DNA from: Variovorax paradoxus | Lineage (GTDB): Bacteria; Pseudomonadota; Gammaproteobacteria; Burkholderiales; Burkholderiaceae_C | Assembly: GCA_016806145.1 (NCBI GenBank) | Contig: CP063167.1 | Span: 926,501 to 990,500 of the forward strand | DNA: 64,000 nucleotides | Direction of reading: 5' to 3' | Part shown: piece after piece, positions 35,814 to 63,623 of the stretch | Position numbering within the stretch: position 1 is the first letter of the stretch | Layout: each line of letters opens with the position of its first letter | Notes under the pieces: generated by a model | Told to the model about the DNA's origin: nothing | Database searches by the model: none | What the model saw: only the letters and a program-made list of their open reading frames with translations | Translations under genes and position numbers: made by a program

Positions 35814-37418
35814 ATGCCGACGGCTGGTATAGCGGGGTACCGGCGGCGGGATCGAACCCGGCTCGTCGCCACCCTGGCTCTGGGAGTGCTCGCCGGTTGC
35901 ACCTCGCTTCCGTTGCCACCGGTGCGTGCCACCAGCCACGCGGTGGCGGACGTGGGTCAGACCACGCTCGGTAAGCTCTCCCGCCAGGGGGCACCCCCGG
36001 CACCGCTCGGTCGGGCCGGTCCGATCTCGAGCTTCCGGCTACTGCCCGATGCGGCCTTCGCCTTCGACGCCCGCATCTCGCTGGCGCGCAACGCTGAGAA
36101 CACGCTCGACGTCCAGTACTACCACATCGCCAACGACGACGTGGGCCTGCTGCTGCTGCGCGAACTGCGCGACGCGTCCGAACGCGGCGTGCGGGTGAGG
36201 CTGCTGGTGGACGACCTCTACACGGCCGGGGAGGACGAGCTATTCGCCACGCTAGACGCGTTCCCGACCGTGGAGGTGCGCCTGTTCAACCCACTGCCCT
36301 CGCGCGCGGGCTCGCTGGAGGCCCGGCTGCTGATGTCGCTGCCCGACTTCCGCCGCATCAACCACCGCATGCACAACAAGATGCTGCTGGCCGACAACAG
36401 CTTCGCGGTGACCGGCGGGCGCAACATCGCCAACGAGTACTTCATGCGCAGCACCGCGGCCAACTTCATCGACATGGACGTGGTGAGCAACGGGCCAGTG
36501 GTGCGCGAGATGTCGGTCGCGTTCGACCGCTACTGGAACAGCGAGCATGCGTGGACGATCCGTCACATCGTGCCCACGCGGCTAGCGCCGGAAGCGGCCC
36601 AGGCGCGCTTCAACGAACTGGCGCGGCGGGCGCGGCCCGACGTGCCGATCCAGCCGCGCGACTCGCTGGGCCAGGTCCCGGTGGGGCAGGAATTCGCGAC
36701 AGGGAAGGTTCGGCGCTATTGGGCACCGGCGCGCTTCTACGCCGACGACCCGGACAAGATCGAGCGCAATGCACAGGCTGCCTTTGCAGGAAGCGTCTCC
36801 GAGCATGCGCTCGCTGCATTCGGCAGCGCACGCAGAACTGCACGCATCTACTCGCCCTATTTCATTCCCGGTCCGAAGGGCATGCAGATGCTTTGGGCAA
36901 ACCGCATGCGCGGCGTAGAAACGGAGGTAGTCACCAATTCCCTGGGCGCCACCGATGAACCCCTTGCGTATGCTGGCTACGAGCGATACCGGGCGGAGAT
37001 GCTTCGAGCGGGGGTAATCATCCACGAGATCGCACCCGATTACACCGCGCGCTCGGGTCACTTCGGCAACTTCGGAAAGACCATCAGCCGACTGCATGGC
37101 AAGGTTGCTTTCATCGACGACGAGCGCATCTTCATCGGCTCGATGAACCTGGACCATCGGTCTGCGACGTTGAACACCGAAGCGGGACTGCTGATCGAAA
37201 GCCGCGATCTCATGGCGGACTACCTCTCGGTTCTGTCAGCCAAGCGTGCCCATCCAGGATACCGCCTGCAACTCGCGCCTGATGGCCGACGTACGCAATG
37301 GGTCGAACTCGACGAGAGAGGCGCGAACGTCGTGCACGAGGACATTCCGGGCGAGTTCCTGTGGCTGCGGCTGAAGAACTGGCTGCTGCTACCGCTGGTG
37401 GGCGAAGAGTTGCTCTAG
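35814..37418 (+). CDS. phospholipase D family lipoprotein (cardiolipin synthase C-like)
   Basis: This 534-residue protein has a lipoprotein signal (VATLALGVLAGCTSL, lipobox LAGC near residue 28) and two PLD catalytic motifs: HNKMLLADNSFAVTGGRN and LHGKVAFIDDERIFIGSMNL (HxKxxxxD twice). Size and motif spacing match ClsC-type cardiolipin synthases and related periplasmic phospholipases, which transfer phosphatidyl groups between lipids. It starts 22 bp after the epimerase-like gene and may extend that operon. The ribosome binding site is weak (AGGA directly against the ATG). Confidence 0.88.
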   Translation: MPTAGIAGYRRRDRTRLVATLALGVLAGCTSLPLPPVRATSHAVADVGQTTLGKLSRQGAPPAPLGRAGPISSFRLLPDAAFAFDARISLARNAENTLDVQYYHIANDDVGLLLLRELRDASERGVRVRLLVDDLYTAGEDELFATLDAFPTVEVRLFNPLPSRAGSLEARLLMSLPDFRRINHRMHNKMLLADNSFAVTGGRNIANEYFMRSTAANFIDMDVVSNGPVVREMSVAFDRYWNSEHAWTIRHIVPTRLAPEAAQARFNELARRARPDVPIQPRDSLGQVPVGQEFATGKVRRYWAPARFYADDPDKIERNAQAAFAGSVSEHALAAFGSARRTARIYSPYFIPGPKGMQMLWANRMRGVETEVVTNSLGATDEPLAYAGYERYRAEMLRAGVIIHEIAPDYTARSGHFGNFGKTISRLHGKVAFIDDERIFIGSMNLDHRSATLNTEAGLLIESRDLMADYLSVLSAKRAHPGYRLQLAPDGRRTQWVELDERGANVVHEDIPGEFLWLRLKNWLLLPLVGEELL

Positions 37419-39940: not shown

Positions 39941-40015
39941 GGGCTTAACGCCCAGGCCGCGTGCCCCGCGTTGACAGTGCATGTGCCGATGGCTCCATCG
40001 GCACGCTCTGGCACC

Positions 40016-41698
40016 ATGCACAGCATGCTTGGCGCGCGCGCTCTTCCTTCTGCGATTCCATCCGAGCTGTCCGCAGAGACAGCCGCGCTGATTGCCCAGC
40101 TACGCCAGCGCCTGCAAGACCAGGACAAGCAGCTTGCCGAGCGCGACGCGCTGCTACAGCGCAAGGACCGTGAGATCGCGCTGCGCGAGGCCAAGATCGA
40201 GAAGATCACCTTCGAGCTGGCCAGGCTCAAGCGCTGGAAGTTCGGCGCCAAGTCCGAGGCCATGAATGCCGAGCAGCGCCGCCTGTTCGAGGAGACGCTG
40301 GCCGAGGACGAGGCGGGCCTGCGTGAGCAGCTCGAGCGGCTGCGGCGTGAAGCCGCCACGGCCGCAGCCGGCGCAGCTGCCTCGGACACGGCGACCAAGG
40401 CGCCCCCGCGCCGGCCGCGCCGCAACCCGTTCCCCGATCACTTGCGCCGTGTGGAACACCACCATGAGCCCGAGCGCACCGACTGCCTGGAGCCCGGCTG
40501 CGGGCGCCCAATGACGCGCATCGGCCAGGAGGTCAGCGAGCGCCTGGACATCGTGCCTGCCGAGTTCTTCGTACATCGCCACATCTACGGCAAGTGGGCC
40601 TGCCGCTGCTGCCAGGTGCTGCGCCAGGCGCCCAGCGTGGCAGAGGTCATCGAAGGCGGTATCGCTGCCAGTGGCTTCGTCGCACACACGCTGATCAGTC
40701 GCTTCGTGGACCACATGCCCTACTACCGGCAAGCGACCATCAACGCCCGCAGCGGCGTGCACACACCGCGCTCCACGCTGGCATCCATCACCGGCCAGGC
40801 CGGTGCGGCGCTGGAGCCGCTGCACGAGGCGCACAGGCGCTTCATCCTCAGCTGTGCAGTGCTGCACGCCGATGAGACCCCAGTGGCCCTGCTGGACCCG
40901 GGTGCGGGCAAGACGCGCCGAGCCTACATCTGGGCCTACGCCAGAAGCTGGCACGACAAGGTGCCTGGTGTGATCTACCAGTTCTGCCCGGGACGCGGAG
41001 CGCAGTACCCGTTGGAATTCCTGGGAGGCCAGGATCGATACGGCAAGCGATGGTCGGGCACGTTGCTGACCGACCGCTACAGCGCCTACGAGACTGTGGT
41101 CGATCCGCGGCTGTATCCGGACCGCTTGGGCGCAGCCTGCGCCGCGCACGCGCGCCGCAACTTCGAAGAGCTGACGCACGACGGCACCAGCGTGGTGGGC
41201 CTGGAGGCGGTGCGTCGCTTCGCGCGCATCTACGGGGTCGAGGCACAGCTCAAAGAGCTCAGCGATGACGAGCGCCGGGCGCAGCGCCAGCGGCTTGCCA
41301 AGCCGCTGTGGGAAGAGCTCAAACACTGGCTACAACTGGAGCGCCGGCTGGTAGCCGACGGCGGCCCGACGGCCAAGGCCATCGACTACGCGCTGGGGCA
41401 TTGGGCCGCGCTGACGCGGCACTTGGACGACGGCGCGGTCGCCATCGACAACAACCACCTGGAGCGCCAAATCAAGCCGTGGGCGATGGGACGCAAGGCA
41501 TGGATGTTCGTGGGCAGCGAACTGGCTGGCCAGCGCGCGGCCATCGTGATGAGCCTGGTGCAGTCGGCGCGCATGAACGGGCGCGATCCCTGGGCCTACC
41601 TGCGCGACGTGCTGCAGCGCCTGCCGACGCAGCGCAGCAGTCGGATCGAGGAACTGCTGCCACACCGATGGCAGCCAGAATCCAGCGCGGCACCATGA
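40016..41698 (+). CDS. tnpC: IS66 TnpC (DDE transposase)
   Basis: This 560-residue transposase has an N-terminal coiled coil (AALIAQLRQRLQDQDKQLAE), the zinc-finger-like segment (TDCLEPGCGRPM and KWACRCCQVLRQAP) and the catalytic domain with HADETPVALLDPG, LTDRYSAYETVVD and NNHLERQIKPWAMGRKAWMF supplying D, D and E. The start at 40016 gives MHSMLGA; an in-frame TTG at 39971 could add 15 residues. The stop overlaps the accessory gene by ATGA. Confidence 0.93.
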   Translation: MHSMLGARALPSAIPSELSAETAALIAQLRQRLQDQDKQLAERDALLQRKDREIALREAKIEKITFELARLKRWKFGAKSEAMNAEQRRLFEETLAEDEAGLREQLERLRREAATAAAGAAASDTATKAPPRRPRRNPFPDHLRRVEHHHEPERTDCLEPGCGRPMTRIGQEVSERLDIVPAEFFVHRHIYGKWACRCCQVLRQAPSVAEVIEGGIAASGFVAHTLISRFVDHMPYYRQATINARSGVHTPRSTLASITGQAGAALEPLHEAHRRFILSCAVLHADETPVALLDPGAGKTRRAYIWAYARSWHDKVPGVIYQFCPGRGAQYPLEFLGGQDRYGKRWSGTLLTDRYSAYETVVDPRLYPDRLGAACAAHARRNFEELTHDGTSVVGLEAVRRFARIYGVEAQLKELSDDERRAQRQRLAKPLWEELKHWLQLERRLVADGGPTAKAIDYALGHWAALTRHLDDGAVAIDNNHLERQIKPWAMGRKAWMFVGSELAGQRAAIVMSLVQSARMNGRDPWAYLRDVLQRLPTQRSSRIEELLPHRWQPESSAAP

Positions 41699-53961: not shown

Positions 53962-55323
53962 TCAAGAGCAGAGGGCCGGCTCGGCATGTGCGACATCGAA
54001 GCCCTCGGCGATCAATGCATCACGCTGCAGGTCGGAACGCTCCGCCAGCAGCTTTCGCAGGCGGCGCATCTCGCGTGGTCGGTTGATTCCTACGGCACCG
54101 ATCACCGCATCGCCGCGCAGGTAGATGAACAGTGGCGAATCCACTGTCGCGTTGCCACCTGCGCCCGCCAGGACCGTGTCGCCGCACAGTGGAGCGCCAA
54201 TCACCTGGAGGTTCACGCCGTACTGATCCGACCAGAACCAAGGTGGCGCTGTGCAGGACCTGTCCGAAGCGCCTTCTAAAGGGCCCTGCAGGTCATCGCC
54301 CAGCGCCTGGACCGGCTTCACGAGCTGTAGAGCGGCCCCACTTCCGGCGATCTGCCTGGCCGCGATCGCTCCCTGGCGATTGGCGTTGTCCCAGGTCTCG
54401 ATACGCACGGGCACACGGTGCCAAGGGCAGACGTGCTCGGCCACATCTCCGGCCGCAAAGATCTCGGGCACCGAGGTTCGACAATTTCGATCCACCACGA
54501 TTCCCGAACGTACCTGCAGCCCCATTTGCTCGGCCAGCGACGTGCTGGGATCGATGCCAATGCCAACCACCACCGCGCCGACCGGCAAAGCGCTGCCGTC
54601 CGACAACTGCGCGCTACGAACGTCAGCGTCGCCGTCGAGGCGAAGTACCGAGCAGCCTAGCCGCACGTCGACGCCGCGCGACACATGAAACCGCCGCAGC
54701 CAGTCTGCTGCCGCAATGGGCAGCGTGCGGCTGCACAACCGTCCGCCTTGCTCCACCAGCGTCACGTCGAGTCCGGCCGCCTGCGCCCCGGCCGCGACCT
54801 CCAAGCCGATCCAGCTTCCGCCCACAATCAACAAGGTGCGCCGCTCCTGTCTGCAGCGTTCGATCGAACGACGCAGCGACAGCGCGTCGCCCGCACTGCG
54901 CAAAGCATGAACGCCACCCAGCTCCGCGCCTGGCACCCGCAACCGCCGAGGGACTCCGCCCGTGGCCAGCAGCAACGCGCTGTAGGACAGAGTCGAGCCA
55001 TCGCTACAAAACAGCGTCCTCGAGGCCACATCGCCCGAGACAACCCGACGGTCCAGCCGCAGCTGTTCGTTTGACCGCTCATCTGGCGCGACCGCGCGCA
55101 AGTCTTGCCCCATGCCCCAGAGGTACTCCTTGGACAGGGGAGGGCGCTCATAGGGCGCAAAGGCTTCGTCGCTCACGAGAACGATGGAACCCATGTAGTC
55201 AAGCTGGCGCAGGGTTTTCAATGCCGCCCCTGCCGCTTGGCCGCCCCCCACGATAACGAGGCGCGCGTCAGGCGAGCCGACCGCAGCAGACGGCAACACC
55301 GATGTCGACCCAAGGGGCGTCAT
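53962..55323 (-). CDS. FAD-dependent ferredoxin reductase of a Rieske oxygenase system
   Basis: This 453-residue flavoprotein of the glutathione-reductase-like family has the FAD-binding start RLVIVGGGQAAGAALKTLRQ, the YERPPLSKEYL block typical of BphA4/AndAa-type reductases, the NAD-binding GGSWIGLEVAAGAQ, and the C-terminal FAD motif TSVPEIFAAGDVAEH. It takes electrons from NADH and passes them to the Rieske ferredoxin. Its ATG overlaps the ferredoxin stop by four bases, showing coupling. The C-terminal roughly 50 residues are longer than in the shortest homologues. Confidence 0.9.
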   Translation of the reverse strand: MTPLGSTSVLPSAAVGSPDARLVIVGGGQAAGAALKTLRQLDYMGSIVLVSDEAFAPYERPPLSKEYLWGMGQDLRAVAPDERSNEQLRLDRRVVSGDVASRTLFCSDGSTLSYSALLLATGGVPRRLRVPGAELGGVHALRSAGDALSLRRSIERCRQERRTLLIVGGSWIGLEVAAGAQAAGLDVTLVEQGGRLCSRTLPIAAADWLRRFHVSRGVDVRLGCSVLRLDGDADVRSAQLSDGSALPVGAVVVGIGIDPSTSLAEQMGLQVRSGIVVDRNCRTSVPEIFAAGDVAEHVCPWHRVPVRIETWDNANRQGAIAARQIAGSGAALQLVKPVQALGDDLQGPLEGASDRSCTAPPWFWSDQYGVNLQVIGAPLCGDTVLAGAGGNATVDSPLFIYLRGDAVIGAVGINRPREMRRLRKLLAERSDLQRDALIAEGFDVAHAEPALCS

Positions 55324-55661
55324 GGCTCGGCCACACCCTGGGGGATTTCCACCAGGAGTGCATCGTCCTCGACGCGCACTGCATAAGTGGCCAAGTCAAC
55401 ATTGGCCACCGCCAGACACTTCCCGCTGCGGATGTCGAACATGGCCCCATGCAGGGGACACTCGACTGCCTCCCCCTCGATATAGCCATCGGAGAGCAGC
55501 GCATAGGCGTGCGTGCACACGTCATGCGTGGCGTGGATGCCGTCGTCCAGCCGATAAAGCGCGATCGGGATACCTGCGAGCTTCACGCCCTTGGGTTCCC
55601 CCTTCTTCACTTCAGACGCCGCGCACGCGCGCACCCATTGCTTCGAAGCACCGTGTTCCAT
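55320..55661 (-). CDS. Rieske-type [2Fe-2S] ferredoxin
   Basis: This 113-residue Rieske ferredoxin has the cluster ligands in CTHAYALLSDG (Cys and His) and CPLHGAMFDI (Cys and His), in the order C-x-H and C-x2-H with 17 residues between. It carries electrons from the reductase encoded directly downstream to the terminal oxygenase encoded 13 bp upstream. The compact order oxygenase, ferredoxin, reductase defines a three-component system. Confidence 0.92.
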   Translation of the reverse strand: MEHGASKQWVRACAASEVKKGEPKGVKLAGIPIALYRLDDGIHATHDVCTHAYALLSDGYIEGEAVECPLHGAMFDIRSGKCLAVANVDLATYAVRVEDDALLVEIPQGVAEP

Positions 55662-55674
55662 GGACGGCTCTCCC

Positions 55675-56898
55675 TCAACGCGGCAAGGTGCGCCAGTCGT
55701 CTTCGATCGACCTCATTCGGCCACCAGTCGCGGTGATTCCGGCATAGTCGCGGCCTTCAGGCATCGCGCTGGGCGGCGTCTCATTTGCCATGAACTTCCT
55801 GACGGATTGCAGCAGGTGGCGGCGCAGGCGAATGATGGCCTGGTCCGCGGAGCAAAGGTATTCCTCCGAGCGGTCGACGATCGGACCCATGCTGACCTGG
55901 GTGACAAAGTCCTCGACGACGATCTCGTTGAAGCCCGTGTGGTTGCCGTGCTTCATCAGCTGGCGGTTCTGCCCCCAAGCGCGGTCGGGATCATGGCAGA
56001 CACCGCCGGCCATCGGCCAGGTGTTCGCGCGTTGCGCGCGTTTCATCGAATCCGTCGGACGCTTCGTGTTGTAGTAGATGTACCACTGGATCAGGTGCGT
56101 GTCATCGACGGGTACGGCGATGATGACCGTGCGATCCTGGTCGTCGCCCGTGTTGATCGGTGGAATCAGGCCGTAGTAAGGCATAACGAACTCTGTCACC
56201 CGTGCCACGCACTGGCCGTCAGGCGCTTCCCGCAGCGCGGCTGCGCGATAGCCGTAGGCTGTGTCCTCGAACTTGTAACGCACGGCGTTGTTCACTCGCG
56301 CCGCGGCCATGTCCATCTTCGAGTTTTCCAGATGGCTCTGGTGCAGCAGTGCGATGTGTGAGGAGTCGATCGTCGCCTCCACACCCTGCAGCCAGTTCGA
56401 GTTGAGCTCGAGGCCGCACGAGTAGGCCTGTTCCGGGCCAAGTCCCATCCACTCGAAGTTGGGCGCCGCGGGCGCCTCGCCCTCGCCCAACCAGACCCAG
56501 ACCAGACCCGCGCCTTCGACAGCCGGGTAGTGCTTGACGTTGATCGTCTTGCGGAAGCACTCTGGATTGGCCGCCTCGTTAGGCACTTCGAGCACTTCGC
56601 CAGATACACAGATCTTCCACCCGTGGAAGATGCAGCGCAGTGCATTGTCTTCGTTGCGCGCAAGGGCGAGCGAGACGCCGCGGTGCGGGCAGGCTTCATT
56701 CAGGAAACCCACCCGACCGTCATGCGTGCGATAGGCGACATAGCGGTGGCCGAACAACTTCACCCGAACCGGCGCCCCGCCCGCTTCGAGGCGCGAACTC
56801 AGCACCGCGGGTATCCAGTAAAGCTGCCGCAGCATCTGCCCCATTGGAGCGTCGCCCTCGATGCGGGTGAGAAGTTCGTTGTCTTCCTTGGTGGTCAT
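55675..56898 (-). CDS. Rieske terminal oxygenase (phthalate 4,5-dioxygenase/O-demethylase type)
   Basis: This 407-residue oxygenase subunit has the Rieske cluster ligands C70-x-H72 (ACPHRG) and C89-x2-H92 (CIFHGW) and a mononuclear iron site in WLQGVEATIDSSHIALLHQS (Asp and two His). The length and the absence of a beta subunit gene fit the homomultimeric phthalate dioxygenase, vanillate and dehydrodivanillate O-demethylase group. It hydroxylates or demethylates an aromatic acid. The promoter faces the divergent MarR-type regulator and carries a TTGGGTAAA copy at 56925-56933. Confidence 0.9.
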   Translation of the reverse strand: MTTKEDNELLTRIEGDAPMGQMLRQLYWIPAVLSSRLEAGGAPVRVKLFGHRYVAYRTHDGRVGFLNEACPHRGVSLALARNEDNALRCIFHGWKICVSGEVLEVPNEAANPECFRKTINVKHYPAVEGAGLVWVWLGEGEAPAAPNFEWMGLGPEQAYSCGLELNSNWLQGVEATIDSSHIALLHQSHLENSKMDMAAARVNNAVRYKFEDTAYGYRAAALREAPDGQCVARVTEFVMPYYGLIPPINTGDDQDRTVIIAVPVDDTHLIQWYIYYNTKRPTDSMKRAQRANTWPMAGGVCHDPDRAWGQNRQLMKHGNHTGFNEIVVEDFVTQVSMGPIVDRSEEYLCSADQAIIRLRRHLLQSVRKFMANETPPSAMPEGRDYAGITATGGRMRSIEDDWRTLPR

Positions 56899-56924
56899 GG
56901 GTGCACCTGTTCAGTTGTAGGTGG

Positions 56925-56933
56925 TTGGGTAAA
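56925..56933 (+). repeat. TTGGGYAAA copy upstream of the Rieske operon
   Basis: TTGGGTAAA at 56925-56933, 27 bp before the Rieske oxygenase start. It is the same 9-mer as the tandem copies at 57013-57102 and 58042-58050. Confidence 0.6.
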
Positions 56934-56946
56934 AGATGTCCAACTA

Positions 56947-56960
56947 TCTTCTTTGGAAGA
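56947..56960. promoter_or_regulatory. small palindrome in the divergent promoter
   Basis: TCTTC-TTTG-GAAGA is a perfect 5-bp inverted repeat between the Rieske operon and the MarR-type gene. It could be half of a MarR operator, but it is short. Confidence 0.3.
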
Positions 56961-57012
56961 CATATGGTCAATCTATTAGCGGGTTTCCACTACTGAATTC
57001 TTCGAAAAGGTG

Positions 57013-57030
57013 TTAGGCAAATTGGGCAAA
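57013..57030 (+). repeat. tandem TTRGGCAAA iteron pair
   Basis: TTAGGCAAA (57013-57021) and TTGGGCAAA (57022-57030) lie head to tail with a 9-bp period in the regulator's upstream region. Confidence 0.7.
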
Positions 57031-57084
57031 AAGCGGTTTACGAGCTTCTCTTCGGACCAGGAAGACGTCGCCGCAAGATTGATA

Positions 57085-57116
57085 TTGGGTAAATTGGGTA
57101 AACTAAATTGGACAAA
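57085..57116 (+). repeat. tandem TTGGGTAAA iteron pair plus a variant at the regulator start
   Basis: TTGGGTAAA occurs twice head to tail (57085-57093, 57094-57102), followed by the variant TTGGACAAA (57108-57116), which overlaps the possible alternative TTG start. The site lies 13-44 bp before the ATG at 57129, where a repressor would block transcription or translation of the regulator gene. Confidence 0.7.
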
Positions 57117-57128
57117 ACCAGAATCACC

Positions 57129-57974
57129 ATGGCCCAGCCCTTCGCATCAATCGACCTCTCGTCCACGCAATCCCGGCGAGCGCTGGCTCCGCGCGGCAAG
57201 CCCTACTGGCACATCCATTCGCCACGAGTGCACCTCGGCTACTACAAGGGCAGCCGCGGTGCCGTCTGGTACGGCCGAGTATTCATTGGAGAGGGCAAAT
57301 ACAAGCAGACAAAGCTCGGGCCCAGCCATGGCGAGCACGGCGCCGGCGACCAAGGCCTGAGCTACGAAGCGGCGATCCAGGCGCTGCTGCAGTGGGCCGC
57401 CAGTGAACCGACGAGCGCGGACAGCCCAAGCGACGCACTCCAGAGCGAGCTAGCGGCCAAGGAGGCAAAGGCTGCGAACGCGCTCAAACCTCAACGCCTC
57501 GATGCCATCTCGCTGGCCTGGGCTCACGAGCGCCCCGACGTTGACTTCTGGCTCGCCGGCTTCTTCTTGCGGCTCGAGCATGCGCACTACCTGCACGAGC
57601 GACGCGTGCAGGAGATCGCCAAGCAGGCCGACACCACCGTCGGCGATCTGCACGTGCTCTTGGCCCTGCGGCGCAACGGTGCCGACAACGCCATGCGGCC
57701 GACCGATCTGTACAAGGAACTGCTCGTCACATCGGGAGCGATCACCAAGCGGCTTGACAGCCTGCGCGCTCAGAAGCTCATTGCACGCGCCGCAGCGGCG
57801 GAAGACCGTCGCTCCGAGTTGGTGAAGCTCACCAAGCGCGGCCAAGCCGTTGCCGACACCGCGATGACTCGCATTGCGCAATCACTGGAAGGCATCGTCA
57901 AGGCCAGTGGAGTCAGCCGAGCGGAACTACGGCAGATGGATGAATGCTTCCGGCGACTGATAGCCGCCATGTAG
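57129..57974 (+). CDS. MarR-type regulator fused to a tyrosine-recombinase-like N-terminal domain
   Basis: This 281-residue protein has two parts. Residues about 13-90 (RRALAPRGKPYWHIHSPRVH, LGYYKGSRGAVWYGRVFIGE, GKYKQTKLGPS) resemble the N-terminal domain of a group of phage-type integrases, recalled as LPPSGKPYWRAI, LGYRKG and GGRWVVRWYLGDGRY. That is normally the part before the core-binding and catalytic domains. Residues about 150-265 form a MarR winged helix: LHVLLALRRNGADNAMRPTD, SGAITKRLDSLRAQKLIAR and EDRRSELVKLTKRGQAV. No recombinase catalytic domain is present. The gene is divergent from the Rieske operon, is followed by an ABC operon, and has TTGGGYAAA copies on both sides. I infer a regulator that uses a recombinase-type DNA-binding module. 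The start at 57129 is the first ATG; the frame is open back to a TTG at 57108. Confidence 0.85.
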   Translation: MAQPFASIDLSSTQSRRALAPRGKPYWHIHSPRVHLGYYKGSRGAVWYGRVFIGEGKYKQTKLGPSHGEHGAGDQGLSYEAAIQALLQWAASEPTSADSPSDALQSELAAKEAKAANALKPQRLDAISLAWAHERPDVDFWLAGFFLRLEHAHYLHERRVQEIAKQADTTVGDLHVLLALRRNGADNAMRPTDLYKELLVTSGAITKRLDSLRAQKLIARAAAAEDRRSELVKLTKRGQAVADTAMTRIAQSLEGIVKASGVSRAELRQMDECFRRLIAAM

Positions 57975-58026
57975 CGCTACGACAGGGTTTACGCTAGTGA
58001 CGTTTATCTTGCCAGGAAGATAATCA

Positions 58027-58050
58027 TTGGGCAGAAAGTAGTTGGGCAAA
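58027..58050 (+). repeat. TTGGGCARA pair upstream of the ABC operon
   Basis: TTGGGCAGA (58027-58035) and TTGGGCAAA (58042-58050), starts 15 bp apart, lie 56-79 bp before the substrate-binding protein start. This places the same putative operator in the third promoter of the cluster. Confidence 0.6.
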
Positions 58051-58105
58051 CGTGCCCCACTGCGCGCGCCGAGCGCGGCACTTGTCTCAGTGAACTGGAA
58101 CCACG

Positions 58106-59311
58106 ATGAATGTCCCCAAGCTCCCGATATCGCGCCGCAGCCTGCTGAAGGCATCGCTGGCGCCCTTGACGCTCTCCTTCGATCGCGTGCTGGCTCAACC
58201 CCAGCCGAGCTTCAAGGGAGAGATCCGACTCGGGCAGACGATGCCTTACAGCGGCCCTTTGTCAGCGCTGAGCGCGATCGGAAAGGTGCAGGCGCGCTAC
58301 TTCAAGATGCTCAACGACAACGGGGGCATCAACGGGCGCAGCGTCACGCTGCTGTCGCTGGACGACGCCTACAACCCCGCCAAGGCCGTGGAGCAGACAC
58401 GCAACCTCGTCGAGCGCGAGGGCGTCAAGGCCATGTTCGCCAGCATGGGCACGGCGCAGAACGTGGCGGTCCAGAAGTACCTCAACGGCAAGAAGGTCCC
58501 TCAGCTTTTCGTCTACGCCGGCAGCGATCGCTTTGCGGACCCGAAGAACTTTCCCTGGACGGTGCCGGGTTTGCCGACGTTTTCGACCGAGGCTTCGGTC
58601 TACGCCGAGTACATCCACAAGACCAAGCCAAGCGCCAAGGTCGCGGTGCTCTACCAGAACGACGATTTCGGCAAGGAGTACTTGGCCGCGTTCAAGCGAC
58701 AGTTGCAAACGCTGGGCAGCCAGGTCCAGGTTGTGATGGCCACGGGCTACGAGGTGACGGCTCCCACGATCGATTCACAGATCATCAGCCTCGCGGCCAC
58801 GGGCGCCGACGTCTTCATGGATATCACGAGCCCCAAGTTCACCATCCAAGCGATTCGCAAGGTCAGCGAGTTGCCCTGGAAGCCGCTACACATCATTCCC
58901 ATCACCAGCAATTTCATCGCCACGGTGCTGCGGGTCGCAGGCCTGGACAAGTCCACCGGCCTCGTATCCGCCACGCCGAGCAAATCCGCCGGCGATGCCG
59001 AATGGGTGAATGACGCGGCCTACAAGGACTGGCTCGCGTTCATGAAGAAATACTACCCCGAGGGTGACACCACCGAGCAGCTCAATCTCGTGGGCTACAG
59101 CATGGGGTTCCTGATGACCGAGGTGCTCAGGCGCTGCGGCGACGACCTGAGCGCCGAACGCATCCTCAAGGAAGCCACCTCACTCAAGAATGTGGCGCTG
59201 CCCGCGCTGGTGCCGGGCATCACGGTGAACACCTCGCTCACCGACTACCGTATCGTGCAGCAGCTTCGCCTGCAGCGCTTCGACGGCGCCCGCTGGCTCC
59301 CGGTGGTCTGA
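58106..59311 (+). CDS. ABC transporter substrate-binding protein, Liv/aromatic type
   Basis: This 401-residue periplasmic binding protein has a signal (NVPKLPISRRSLLKASLAPL, with twin arginine RRSLLK) and a type I receptor fold: IRLGQTMPYSGPLSALSAIG, NDNGGINGRSVTLLSLDDAY, NPAKAVEQTRNLVEREGVKA and VAVLYQNDDFGKEY. The subgroup serves urea, amides, branched-chain amino acids or aromatic acids. Its stop and the next start overlap (TGATG). With the Rieske cluster and an SDR gene, it probably binds the aromatic substrate of that pathway. Confidence 0.9.
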   Translation: MNVPKLPISRRSLLKASLAPLTLSFDRVLAQPQPSFKGEIRLGQTMPYSGPLSALSAIGKVQARYFKMLNDNGGINGRSVTLLSLDDAYNPAKAVEQTRNLVEREGVKAMFASMGTAQNVAVQKYLNGKKVPQLFVYAGSDRFADPKNFPWTVPGLPTFSTEASVYAEYIHKTKPSAKVAVLYQNDDFGKEYLAAFKRQLQTLGSQVQVVMATGYEVTAPTIDSQIISLAATGADVFMDITSPKFTIQAIRKVSELPWKPLHIIPITSNFIATVLRVAGLDKSTGLVSATPSKSAGDAEWVNDAAYKDWLAFMKKYYPEGDTTEQLNLVGYSMGFLMTEVLRRCGDDLSAERILKEATSLKNVALPALVPGITVNTSLTDYRIVQQLRLQRFDGARWLPVV

Positions 59312-60132
59312 TGAGCGCGCTGCATTCTTCGTCTCCCGCTGCCCGCGGGCGGGACCCAGCGCGCGCCGCGCCGCTGCTACGCATCGATGGCCTGGGCTTG
59401 CGCTTCGGCGGCATCCGCGCGTTGTCCGACGTTTCGTTTTCGGTCGGCCGCGGCGTGATCTGCGGCGTCATCGGTCCGAACGGCGCCGGCAAGACCACCT
59501 TGTTCAACTGCCTGAGCCGTCTCTACGAGCCAAATGAAGGTGCGATCCACTTTGCCGAGCGCGACCTGCGAACGGTACGCGCGCACGAAGTGCCCGCCCT
59601 CGGCATTGCTCGCACCTTCCAGAACGTCGCGCTGTTCGATCGTCAAACAGTGCGCAAGAACGTCGAGACCGGCTGCTTCCTGCAGTTCGGTGGTCGGCAT
59701 TTCGCGGCGCTGATGCGCAATCGCCGAGGCCGCCAGGACCGCGAGCAGGTCAACGCATGCGTCGACGAACTGCTCGCCTTTGCCCGCCTGCGCGAGGTGG
59801 CCGACATCCCAGTCGCCCAACTGTCCTTTGGCACGCGCAAACGCGTAGAGCTGGCCCGCGCCCTCGCGATGAAGCCACAGATGCTGCTGCTGGACGAACC
59901 GGCCGCGGGCCTCAACCACGAGGAGGTGGAAGAGCTCCTCGGCTGGATCCTCGAGATCCGGAACCGGCGGGGCACCTCGGTCCTGCTGATCGAGCATCAC
60001 ATGAACCTCGTGATGCGCGTGTCTGACCAGGTCGTGGTGCTCGAGTTCGGCCGAAAGATCGCTGAAGGTCGGCCCGATGCCGTGGCGGCCAACCCCGAGG
60101 TGGTGCGCGCCTACCTGGGAGGTGAATCATGA
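59311..60132 (+). CDS. livG: ABC transporter ATP-binding protein (LivG-like)
   Basis: This 273-residue ATPase has Walker A GPNGAGKTT (near residue 56), the family signature LSFGTRKRVELARAL (LSxG-like), and Walker B QMLLLDEPAAGLNHEE. The length and the LivG-type insert after Walker A mark it as LivG. It overlaps the LivF gene by four bases (ATGA). It energises uptake with LivF, LivH and LivM. Confidence 0.92.
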   Translation: MSALHSSSPAARGRDPARAAPLLRIDGLGLRFGGIRALSDVSFSVGRGVICGVIGPNGAGKTTLFNCLSRLYEPNEGAIHFAERDLRTVRAHEVPALGIARTFQNVALFDRQTVRKNVETGCFLQFGGRHFAALMRNRRGRQDREQVNACVDELLAFARLREVADIPVAQLSFGTRKRVELARALAMKPQMLLLDEPAAGLNHEEVEELLGWILEIRNRRGTSVLLIEHHMNLVMRVSDQVVVLEFGRKIAEGRPDAVAANPEVVRAYLGGES

Positions 60133-60848
60133 GCGGCCCGCTGCTGCAGGTCCGCGGCCTCTTCGCGGCGTACCAGGCTTCGCCCGTGCTCAAGTCGGTC
60201 GATCTCGATGTAGCTAACGGGGGCATCACCGCCCTGCTGGGTGCGAATGGCGCCGGCAAGACCACGCTGCTGCGATCGATCAGCCACGCCTTGGTCAGCA
60301 CGCGCGGACAGATCCTCCTGGACGGCCAATCCATTGCGGGTCTCACCAGCGATGCCATCGCCCGGCTGGGTGTGGCCCATGTACCGGACGGCCGCGGCAC
60401 CTTCACGCAGTTGACTGTCGAGGAAAACCTGCTGGTCGGTGCGATCACTCGCCGACGCGGTGCCGATGTGCGGCGCGACATCGAGCGGATGTATGCCCTC
60501 TTTCCGCGGCTTGCGGACTACCGCAGCAAGCCGGCCGGGCTGCTGAGCGGCGGCGAGCAGCAGATGGTCGCGATCGCGCGCGCATTGATGCTCAAGCCCC
60601 GCTTGCTGATGCTCGATGAGCCGTCCTTCGGGCTGGCCCCCCTGGTGGTTCGACAGATCTTCGAGGTGCTGGCCCAGATCAACCGTGACAGCGGCCTGGG
60701 CATCCTCGTCGTCGAGCAAAACGCCCGCCTTGCGCTCGACCTGGCGCACACAGCCTACGTGCTGGAAGCAGGGAGCGTTGCCATCAGCGGAAACGCACAG
60801 GCCCTGCGCGACGACCCGCGCGTGAAGAAGGCCTACCTCGGCATCTGA
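60129..60848 (+). CDS. livF: ABC transporter ATP-binding protein (LivF-like)
   Basis: This 239-residue ATPase has Walker A GANGAGKTTLLRSIS, the signature LLSGGEQQMVAIARAL and Walker B LLMLDEPSFGLAPLVV. The compact size and the block FPRLADYRSKPAGLLSG are LivF-typical. Together with LivG it forms the nucleotide-binding pair; the permease gene follows 23 bp later. Confidence 0.92.
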   Translation: MSGPLLQVRGLFAAYQASPVLKSVDLDVANGGITALLGANGAGKTTLLRSISHALVSTRGQILLDGQSIAGLTSDAIARLGVAHVPDGRGTFTQLTVEENLLVGAITRRRGADVRRDIERMYALFPRLADYRSKPAGLLSGGEQQMVAIARALMLKPRLLMLDEPSFGLAPLVVRQIFEVLAQINRDSGLGILVVEQNARLALDLAHTAYVLEAGSVAISGNAQALRDDPRVKKAYLGI

Positions 60849-60871
60849 GAAGAAGAAGGAGACACAGACAC

Positions 60872-61744
60872 ATGACGGAATTTGTCCAACAGGTGGTCGC
60901 GGGTTTTGTGAACGGGTGCATCTACGCCATGCTGGCGCTGGCCCTGGTCATGATCTATCGCGCGACCCATCACGTGAATTTTGCGCAAGGCGAGATGGCG
61001 ATGTTCTCCACCTACATCGCCTGGTCGCTGCTCGAGGCCGGCGTGCCGTACTGGGCCGCAGGCATTGCAGCCATCGCTTTCGGTTTCGTCGCCGGCGCCC
61101 TGATCGAACGCGTCGCCTTGCGGCCGCTGCATAACGCGCCGTTGCTGTCGATCGTGACGGTCTTCGTGGCACTGATGATCATCATCCAGAGCGCGGCCGG
61201 GCTGCTGTTTGGCCACGAAAGCCATAGCTTCGCGAGCCCGTTCGAGGCCTGGAGCCCGCTGGGCCAGGGCATGTTGTCGGGCCACGCGCTCGGTACCGTC
61301 GCGGTCACGCTTGCCGTGCTGCTGGCGATGAGTGCCTTCTTCCGTTTCACACGTCTCGGCCTGGCAATGCGCGCAGCGGCCCTGAATCCGCTTTCGAGCG
61401 CGCTGTCCGGGGTCAGCGTGAGCCGGCTGCTGATGATCGGCTGGGGCGTCGCAGGCGCGATCGGGGCGGTCGCGGGCCTGCTGGCCACTCCGGTGGTTTT
61501 CCTCGGCCCGCACATGATGGCCGGCATCATGATCTATGGCTTCGCCGCCGCAGTCGTGGGCGGTGTCGACAGCCCGCCCGGCGCCATCCTGGGAGGCCTC
61601 GTGCTGGGGATTGGCGAGAACCTGCTGGGTGCCTACGTGACCGGCAATGAGCTCAAGCTCACGATCGCGCTGGTTTTGATGTTTGCCATCCTTGTGGTGC
61701 GGCCCCAAGGCCTGCTCGGCGGAAAGGCGGTTCAGCGTGTCTGA
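60872..61744 (+). CDS. livH: ABC transporter permease (LivH-like)
   Basis: This 290-residue membrane protein of the LivH group has about eight helices: VNGCIYAMLALALVMIYRAT, HHVNFAQGEMAMFSTYIAWS, and the cytoplasmic coupling segment RFTRLGLAMRAAALNP. AGAAGGAGACACAG precedes the ATG. It forms the membrane channel with LivM, whose GTG start overlaps its stop. Confidence 0.92.
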   Translation: MTEFVQQVVAGFVNGCIYAMLALALVMIYRATHHVNFAQGEMAMFSTYIAWSLLEAGVPYWAAGIAAIAFGFVAGALIERVALRPLHNAPLLSIVTVFVALMIIIQSAAGLLFGHESHSFASPFEAWSPLGQGMLSGHALGTVAVTLAVLLAMSAFFRFTRLGLAMRAAALNPLSSALSGVSVSRLLMIGWGVAGAIGAVAGLLATPVVFLGPHMMAGIMIYGFAAAVVGGVDSPPGAILGGLVLGIGENLLGAYVTGNELKLTIALVLMFAILVVRPQGLLGGKAVQRV

Positions 61745-62774
61745 GTCCACCCACATCTCTTCCACGCCGAGCGTGCGACCCCTGCGCCTACTTGTCGCGC
61801 CGGCAACGGCGTGGCTGGCCGTGCTCGCCATTGCCTGCGTGGCAGTCGCGTCGCTGCTCCCGAGCTATTGGGCCTTCAAGCTGTCGAGCGTGCTGATCCT
61901 GGCGCTGGCCGTGCGAGGCTTGCAACTGCTGATCGGCTCCAGCGGGCAAATCTCGCTGGGCCACGGCGCCTTCTTTGCCGTCGGCGCTTACACCGCGGGC
62001 ATCTTGCTCTCCCATCAGTGGCTGCCTTTCTATGTCATCGTGCCCGCAGCCATGGCAGTCTGCGGACTCTTCGGCTTCCTCTTCGGTCTGCCAGCGACCC
62101 GATTGGCGGGACCCTATCTCGCTTTGGCCACCTTCACACTCGCTGTCGCGCTGCCGCAGCTTCTGAAGCATCCGCTGCTGGAGCCCTGGACTGGCGGCGT
62201 CAGTGGGCTGAGCCTGGACCCGCCGGCTGCACCTTTCGGCATCGAGTTCCTGCAACCCGATGCGTGGAACCTGCTCCTGACGGCTGCCTGGACCGCACTG
62301 ATCTACGGCGTGCTGCGGCGACTGCTCAACGGCCCGGCGGGTCTTGCCTGGATCACCTTGCGCGACCATCCGACAGCCGCCCTGGCCGTCGGCGTCGACG
62401 TCCGCAAGTGGCGAGCGACCGCGTTCGCGGTCAGTGCTGCCACCGTCGGTGCGGCCGGCGCACTCAACACGGGCCTGACCCACTTCGTCTCTCCGGACAG
62501 CTTCCCGATCTTCCTCTCGCTGAGCCTGCTGGTCGGCGTGGCGCTTGCTGGTCCGAGCTCGAGCGTGGGTACCTTTGTGGCCGCGGTCTTTCTCTCCTTC
62601 GTGCCCGACGTCGCCGAAAAGCTGTCGCAAGAGCTCACGGGCGTTCTCTACGGCGCCGTGATGCTCGGGGCCGTGTTCGTGCTGCCGCTGCTGTCCAAGT
62701 GGCGCGGACGCATGGCTGTGTCCGATCGCGCTGCGGCACCGCCCCTGAATCCCATCGATATCAAGGAGAAATGA
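61737..62774 (+). CDS. livM: ABC transporter permease (LivM-like)
   Basis: This 345-residue LivM-group permease has about ten helices, the RGLQLLIGSSGQISLGHGAF region and the coupling loop HPTAALAVGVDVRKWRATAF. I chose the GTG at 61737, which overlaps the LivH stop; the frame is open further back to 61683. The C-terminus ends just before the SDR gene start, so all six genes from 58106 to 63623 look like one operon. Confidence 0.9.
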   Translation: MSESTHISSTPSVRPLRLLVAPATAWLAVLAIACVAVASLLPSYWAFKLSSVLILALAVRGLQLLIGSSGQISLGHGAFFAVGAYTAGILLSHQWLPFYVIVPAAMAVCGLFGFLFGLPATRLAGPYLALATFTLAVALPQLLKHPLLEPWTGGVSGLSLDPPAAPFGIEFLQPDAWNLLLTAAWTALIYGVLRRLLNGPAGLAWITLRDHPTAALAVGVDVRKWRATAFAVSAATVGAAGALNTGLTHFVSPDSFPIFLSLSLLVGVALAGPSSSVGTFVAAVFLSFVPDVAEKLSQELTGVLYGAVMLGAVFVLPLLSKWRGRMAVSDRAAAPPLNPIDIKEK

Positions 62775-62777
62775 AGC

Positions 62778-63623
62778 ATGCTGAATCGCAACAGGCCGCT
62801 TGAGGGCCAGGTGGCCGTGGTGACGGGCGCAACGCGAGGCGTCGGCAAGGGCGTCGCGCTGGCACTCGGTGAAGCCGGGGCGCTGGTCTATGCGACCGGG
62901 CGCACGCTCGAGGCCGGCGCGTCAAATTGGCCGGGGTCCCTTCAGGAAACCGCCGATGAAATCGCCCAGCGCGGCGGCCTATGCATCCCGATCGTCTGCG
63001 ACCATGGCGACGACGCCAGTGTGAAGCGCGTGTTCGAGCGTGTGCACGATGAACAAGACGCAGCGATCGACATCCTGGTGAACAACGTGTTTGCGGCCCC
63101 GTCCCACATGCCGGTCAACGTGCCCTTCTGGGAGCTCGAAGACGGTCTTTGGGAAAACCTGCTGCGCGTGGGGCTGCGCTCGCACTACATTGCCAGCCGC
63201 TGCGCGGCGCCGAAGATGGTTGCCCGCCGCAAAGGACTGATCGTCAATACCTCCTCGGGCGGCGCTGTGCGCTACACCTTCAACGTGCCCTTCGGAGTGC
63301 AGAAGGCCGGCGTCGACAAAATGGCCAAGGACATGGCTCACGACCTCAAGCCCTTCAACGTGGCCGCGGTCGTGATTTGGCCGGGTTTTATCAAGAGCGA
63401 GAAGTTCCTCGTTCAGCCGGACCGGGTCCCTGCACCACTGGCCAAGCGGATCATGGAAAGCGGGGAGTCCTCCGAGTTCGCGGGGCGGGCTGTGGTGGGC
63501 TTGGCGGCCGATCCAGCGATCATGGAAAAGAGCGGTCGACTGCATCTGGTTGCAGAACTGGCGCAAGAGTACGGGTTCACGGACATCGATGGCAGGATGC
63601 CCGCGGCGCCTTCGCGGGTCTGA
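62778..63623 (+). CDS. short-chain dehydrogenase/reductase with Phe in place of the catalytic Tyr
   Basis: This 281-residue SDR resembles the DHRS1 group: VAVVTGATRGVGKGVALALG (NADP-binding), ILVNNVFAAP and VNTSSGGAVRY. The usual catalytic Y-x-x-x-K appears as VPFGVQKAGVDK, with Phe at the tyrosine position; a single base (TTC for TAC) would account for the change. The lysine is kept. The protein may therefore be inactive as a dehydrogenase or use another residue. It follows the LivM gene by three bases. Confidence 0.87.
   Translation: MLNRNRPLEGQVAVVTGATRGVGKGVALALGEAGALVYATGRTLEAGASNWPGSLQETADEIAQRGGLCIPIVCDHGDDASVKRVFERVHDEQDAAIDILVNNVFAAPSHMPVNVPFWELEDGLWENLLRVGLRSHYIASRCAAPKMVARRKGLIVNTSSGGAVRYTFNVPFGVQKAGVDKMAKDMAHDLKPFNVAAVVIWPGFIKSEKFLVQPDRVPAPLAKRIMESGESSEFAGRAVVGLAADPAIMEKSGRLHLVAELAQEYGFTDIDGRMPAAPSRV

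Follow-up and report, generated by a model that had tools for sequence, protein, structure and literature searches.

Eukaryotes have well-known transcription factors whose DNA-binding domains stem from transposases. In the bacterial setting considered here, the closest described systems are MftR and PecS, which we take to be UrtR-type MarR repressors, and the integrases with arm-type domains. The solved chains of MftR and PecS (PDB 8ylg and 8yli) have 169 and 170 residues and lack an arm domain, unlike the present protein, which is also set in an oxygenase and transporter cluster. The arm-type domains of P4-like, HPI and HAI7 integrases (PDB 3rmp, 3jtz and 3ju0) have the fold predicted for its N-terminal domain in a structure model, with identities of only 11–22%, but here no catalytic domain follows the arm domain. 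Extracts of PMC11963761 describe IntS of the Mesorhizobium element ICEMlSymR7A as having five arm sites in attP and repressing its own gene. In the open-licence literature, no description of an arm-MarR regulator was found among the matches listed.

The gene occupies positions 57129..57974 (+) of the window, meaning the whole stretch of 64,000 nucleotides analyzed. It is an intact ORF with an ATG start, coding for 281 aa, and was assigned as an arm-domain/MarR fusion regulator from the ORF call, domain searches, homologues and the structure model. The motifs GKPYW, LGYYKG, WYGRV and GKYKQ, on which the original prediction drew for the first half, were all found in this order. Residues 9–95 (57153..57413, +) correspond to an integrase arm-type DNA-binding domain by alignment, structure model, and structure and profile comparison, with modelled helices at 13–18 and 79–92 flanking strands at 26–31, 34–40, 45–54 and 57–66. 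After a variable linker of about residues 96–120 comes a MarR half of the MftR/PecS type (residues 121–281; 57489..57971, +), assigned from a Pfam match and the model. MarR_2 (PF12802) matches residues 169–229 with an E-value of 1.8e-9 and 38.1 bits, the Pfam cut-off being 27, and the modelled residues 121–281 align to MftR residues 1–160 with the extra N-terminal helix present as in MftR and PecS. The winged helix expected in the second half was found, with the modelled MarR fold starting near residue 121 rather than at the expected 150. Searches up to E 10 detected no PF00589 catalytic domain in the protein, as had been anticipated; the fusion protein is not a recombinase.

The likeness of the first half to tyrosine-recombinase N-terminal domains was borne out by profile methods. 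Comparison with one integrase N-terminus by hhalign gave 99.1%, with 33% identity over 92 columns, and an HMM of the domain found matches in whole genomes down to E 2.7e-24. PF00589 was present in 61 of the 70 ORFs counted (from a total of 71; L032, flagged with stops, was left out). In VIA-align of the modelled domain, three arm domains ranked top, in line with the predicted fold. The domain could instead be an ordinary MarR N-terminal extension with a chance likeness to integrases, as residues 1–124 alone gave no match to Pfam or NCBIfam at E-values up to 10, the domain profile matched no PDB sequence up to E 1, and the Foldseek E-value was only 0.063. Against the hhalign, HMM and VIA-align results this is extremely improbable, and chance resemblance was rejected on VIA-align, hhalign and the PF00589 count. 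Residues 1–124 alone gave a weak match to phrog_1 'integrase' (E 0.0029), a family not listed for the full-length protein, and a protein search with residues 1–105 only returned 11 proteins, all fusions. The N-domain was not found in phage records up to E 5, and none of 18 pattern matches in viral contigs was confirmed. Three plasmid records carried it, two annotated as site-specific integrase and one without annotation. Matches in L020–L022 ('ASWYGRKFHG', E about 0.005), presumably RlpA-like proteins, were taken as chance.

The search for homologues with the same two-domain order, proposed with the original prediction, was positive. The N-domain was carried by 49 of 115 homologues, obtained from a protein search scoring the best 8000 candidates; one of the 49 (P0044) ends inside the MarR half. 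Since the same N-domain recurs in these proteins and 17 columns are invariant among 20 aligned domains, the architecture is, judged from sequence, not a product of chance. Between the window and eight relatives, pN/pS was 0.25–0.63 in the N-domain, 0.66–0.96 in the linker and 0.11–0.39 in the MarR half, with synonymous sites near saturation. The faster evolution of the N-domain relative to the MarR half would suit a passive relic or dimer spacer. In that case DNA would be bound by the MarR half alone, and the TTGGGYAAA repeats described below would be sites of this half or of some other factor. However, the N-domain core is conserved across the 49 proteins and its pN/pS lies below that of the linker in all eight comparisons; by these measures the arm domain is under constraint.

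Fusions made up 11 of the 70 relatives found in the genome collection. The named hosts are Variovorax, Xenophilus, Hydrogenophaga, Pigmentiphaga, Cupriavidus and Paraburkholderia, together with one Burkholderiales MAG. Within the genus of the window the distribution is patchy, with fusions in 5 of 101 genomes (G000, G680, G698, G762 and G764) and only integrase-length ORFs carrying the N-domain in two others. G698 and the Variovorax paradoxus locus L039 have 600 consecutive bases in common without a difference, which makes Variovorax the most likely genus. The tree groups the fusions into no more than a few lineages, with two label changes or possibly one, and therefore the association between domain and repeats rests on few events. 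The fusion set compared below (n = 14) includes two loci of one genome, L039 and L044, which are paralogous arm-MarR genes on one contig of Variovorax paradoxus ISL-79; the L044 copy is frameshifted after the arm domain, giving a split gene, and the protein record P0048, whose contig has the same length, contains the MarR half only. The arm-less control set comprised 57 of 59 relatives, L084 and L085 being left out because they were without the anchor motif.

The regulator lies between two sets of genes assigned by domain search. Upstream and divergent are a Rieske oxygenase of the LigXa_C type (407 aa; 55675..56898, −), which is the likely target, a Rieske ferredoxin (113 aa; 55320..55661, −) and a ferredoxin reductase (453 aa; 53962..55323, −). 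Downstream are the periplasmic binding protein of a branched-chain-type ABC transporter (58106..59311, +), LivG, LivF, LivH and LivM-like transporter genes (59311..62774, +) and a short-chain dehydrogenase (62778..63623, +). Elsewhere in the window, a large ORF at 39971–41698 reads like an IS66-type transposase, as judged from its sequence. Oxygenase, ferredoxin, reductase, transporter and short-chain dehydrogenase genes are all present at fusion loci L039–L041, L043 and L046. At L042 the ferredoxin, oxygenase and binding protein are present, the reductase was unmatched and the contig ends downstream, while L045 has the transporter side only. The Paraburkholderia loci L047, L048 and L049 are deep-branching fusions where the oxygenase and transporter genes of the window were not matched within about 6 kb; boxes lie upstream of their genes, and a palindrome follows about 940 bp 3' of the start. 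By the tree, the arm-less loci L050–L065, mostly from Bradyrhizobium, fall in the arm-less clade closest to the fusions, and all 16 have oxygenase, ferredoxin, short-chain dehydrogenase and binding-protein genes nearby. Sharing these neighbors and the palindrome with the fusions, they provide a natural control. That such relatives keep this setting without an arm domain would also agree with a passive, relic-like N-domain.

Two classes of candidate operator are new here, the palindrome TATCTTCNNNNGAAGATA and direct repeats of TTGGGYAAA. The MarR-type palindromes TATCTTCTTTGGAAGACA (56945..56962) and TATCTTGCCAGGAAGATA (58005..58022) each overlap a predicted promoter at its spacer and −10, the first that of the divergent oxygenase gene and the second that of the transporter operon. 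A promoter scan of 56850–58150 gave 2 promoter-like sites against 0.3 expected, both overlapping the palindromes, and reported none for the fusion gene itself. With up to one mismatch, the palindrome pattern has two sites in the whole 9.44-Mb genome, both at the regulator locus. With up to two mismatches, TATCTTCNNNNGAAGATA was present at 14/14 fusion loci and 14/17 of the nearest arm-less loci (L050–L066), and at 26/57 of all arm-less relatives.

The direct repeats were found by pattern search at four places around the regulator gene in the window, all on the same strand. Its own promoter region has boxes at −44, −35 and −21 from the ATG and no palindrome near, the first two being a tandem pair of TTGGGTAAA (57085..57093 and 57094..57102, +) and the third TTGGACAAA (57108..57116, +); all three were also recovered by k-mer comparison. 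Further upstream lies a second tandem pair, TTAGGCAAA (57013..57021, +) and TTGGGCAAA (57022..57030, +). Both target promoters combine box and palindrome: TTGGGTAAA (56925..56933, +; also by matrix score) adjoins the palindrome of the oxygenase promoter, and TTGGGCAGA (58027..58035, +) and TTGGGCAAA (58042..58050, +; also by matrix score) adjoin that of the transporter side. Single TTGGGCAAA matches, not in tandem, occur at 36893 and 37931 in other ORFs, away from the regulator. The idea that the boxes encode an extended N-terminus was rejected: the one at 57108 is in frame with the ATG, whereas the pair at 57085 and 57094 is not, and therefore they do not share one reading frame.

Across loci, the repeats accompany the arm domain. 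In a k-mer comparison of 350 bp upstream, TTGGGTAA was present in 10/14 fusions and 0/57 arm-less relatives. Using the pattern TTGG[GA][TC][AG][AG] from −400 to +1200 around the gene, 55 boxes were counted in 22.4 kb for fusions versus 24 in 90.0 kb for arm-less relatives, whereas densities further away were 0.375 and 0.25 per kb. Two or more boxes close to the gene were found in 11/14 fusions versus 8/57 arm-less relatives, and tandem boxes in 9/14 versus 1/57. Box spacing in the fusions was 9 and 13–19 bp, and the variable linker together with the variable box distances suggests a flexible tether. For the neighborhood of palindromes, a matrix was built from boxes in the fusions' own promoters, and scores of 6 or more were counted. 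A box lay within 40 bp of 14/23 fusion palindromes versus 1/31 others (Mann–Whitney p 2.9e-5). The nine fusion palindromes without a good box are both of L042, those of L045 and L047–L049, and one side in L040, L043 and L110; L045 and L047–L049 have boxes in their own upstream region, while L042 has none matching the pattern. The palindrome goes with the MarR half and the repeats go with the arm domain. The weakness of the repeats in some fusions would be expected of a relic arm domain, but their tracking of the arm domain rather than of the MarR half would not.

The repeats might also bind neither half and instead form part of the promoter, or be recognized by a host regulator that accompanies the gene cluster. 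The second box of the pair overlaps a possible −10 (TAAACT, TAGAAT or TAATAT, seen by eye and not reported by the promoter scan), and clade-wide conservation could come from descent alone. This is quite improbable in view of the boxes at four places on one strand and of the tandem form, which at up to one mismatch occurs nowhere else in the 9.44-Mb genome: both matches lie at the regulator locus. Since a reversed control pattern gave nine matches, it is the co-location of the two real ones, not their number, that constitutes the evidence.

Integrases sharing the N-domain were surveyed for comparable repeats (L006–L036, L113–L143 and L148–L163). From 77 matches, six were removed by eye (L017, L020, L021, L022, L038 and L141) and two for short upstream sequence, leaving 69. 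In 47 of these, a direct repeat with at least 8/9 identities lies within 60 bp ahead of the chosen start codon; control windows taken farther upstream at these loci gave 20/276, and shuffled sequences 22/1380. The spacing was 11 bp in 37 of the 47. Such tandem repeats upstream of int are predicted to be arm sites and to serve autoregulation in this integrase group. Their occurrence at integrases with the same N-domain is a further point against a passive arm domain, which is altogether an unlikely explanation.

Three of the six integrases with the N-domain closest to the fusion have fusion-like boxes, TTGGGGAAA (L149), TTGGGGAAG (L026) and TTGGACAAA (L027); L025, the closest, has no such repeat in the 60 bp upstream. 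In box similarity these six outscore the other 63 (p 0.002, with the cut chosen after looking), and over all 69 the trend between N-domain similarity and box score is weak (Spearman 0.20, p 0.09). In a Mantel test on 44 of the 47 repeat-positive integrases, repeat similarity correlated with the N-domain (rho 0.425; partial given the catalytic part 0.194, p 0.002) and with the catalytic part (rho 0.439; partial 0.229, p 0.003). Since the catalytic part correlates equally well, this test cannot part recognition from descent. In L025, L026, L027 and L028, sequence resembling a tRNA 3' end was seen by eye about 150–220 bp upstream of the integrase, as expected for islands in tRNA genes.

Computation on the sequences shows the two-domain protein, its family, the two repeat classes and how these are associated with having or lacking the arm domain. 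From these we infer which half binds which repeat, as well as repression, ligand release and cooperativity. The protein is probably a repressor that responds to a ligand and combines two DNA-binding modules of separate origins, the MarR half reading the palindrome and the arm domain the repeats. The MarR half would dimerize, bind TATCTTCNNNNGAAGATA at two promoters, one for the divergent oxygenase genes and one for the transporter operon downstream, and repress them until released by a small aromatic ligand. The arm domain would bind the TTGGGYAAA direct repeats, providing autoregulation at the regulator's own promoter, where only repeats are present, and beside the palindromes it would add affinity and specificity or tie the promoters together. 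The original proposal of a mobile-element DNA-binding module in a regulator is supported as an interpretation.

As to its origin, the fusion may have captured an integrase arm domain plus the arm sites just upstream of int, the repeats later spreading to target promoters beside palindromes. This is a tentative scenario that we hold to be somewhat doubtful. If true, the hybrid received an autoregulatory promoter already in place, together with a second operator code made of direct repeats, so that the recombination code of a mobile element became the operator code of a metabolic regulator. The arm-less relatives, which have the gene neighborhood and the palindrome in common with the fusions, make it directly testable how a bacterial operator with two specificities arose.

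Compared with known systems, this would be a bacterial, probably metabolic, repressor carrying an integrase arm domain and a probable switch for aromatic-compound genes. The integrases L025–L028, L148–L151 and others have an N-domain homologous to that of the fusion and share upstream tandem repeats in the proportion given above; they differ in being PF00589 recombinases, with mostly 11-bp spacing and a repeat sequence usually unlike that of the fusion. Solved MarR proteins with indole-3-acetic acid (7kua and 7l1i, from other genera) match the MarR half of the fusion only. The MarR regulators of Variovorax auxin catabolism come from the same genus and likewise exert MarR control of catabolic clusters (PMC9613470, extracts), and the words 'integrase' and 'fused' are absent from the text of that paper. 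According to the extracts of PMC11963761, Mesorhizobium IntS resembles the proposal made here in having several arm sites in attP upstream of its own gene and negative autoregulation, but it is a working recombinase and its arm-site consensus is TGKTGGTATC.
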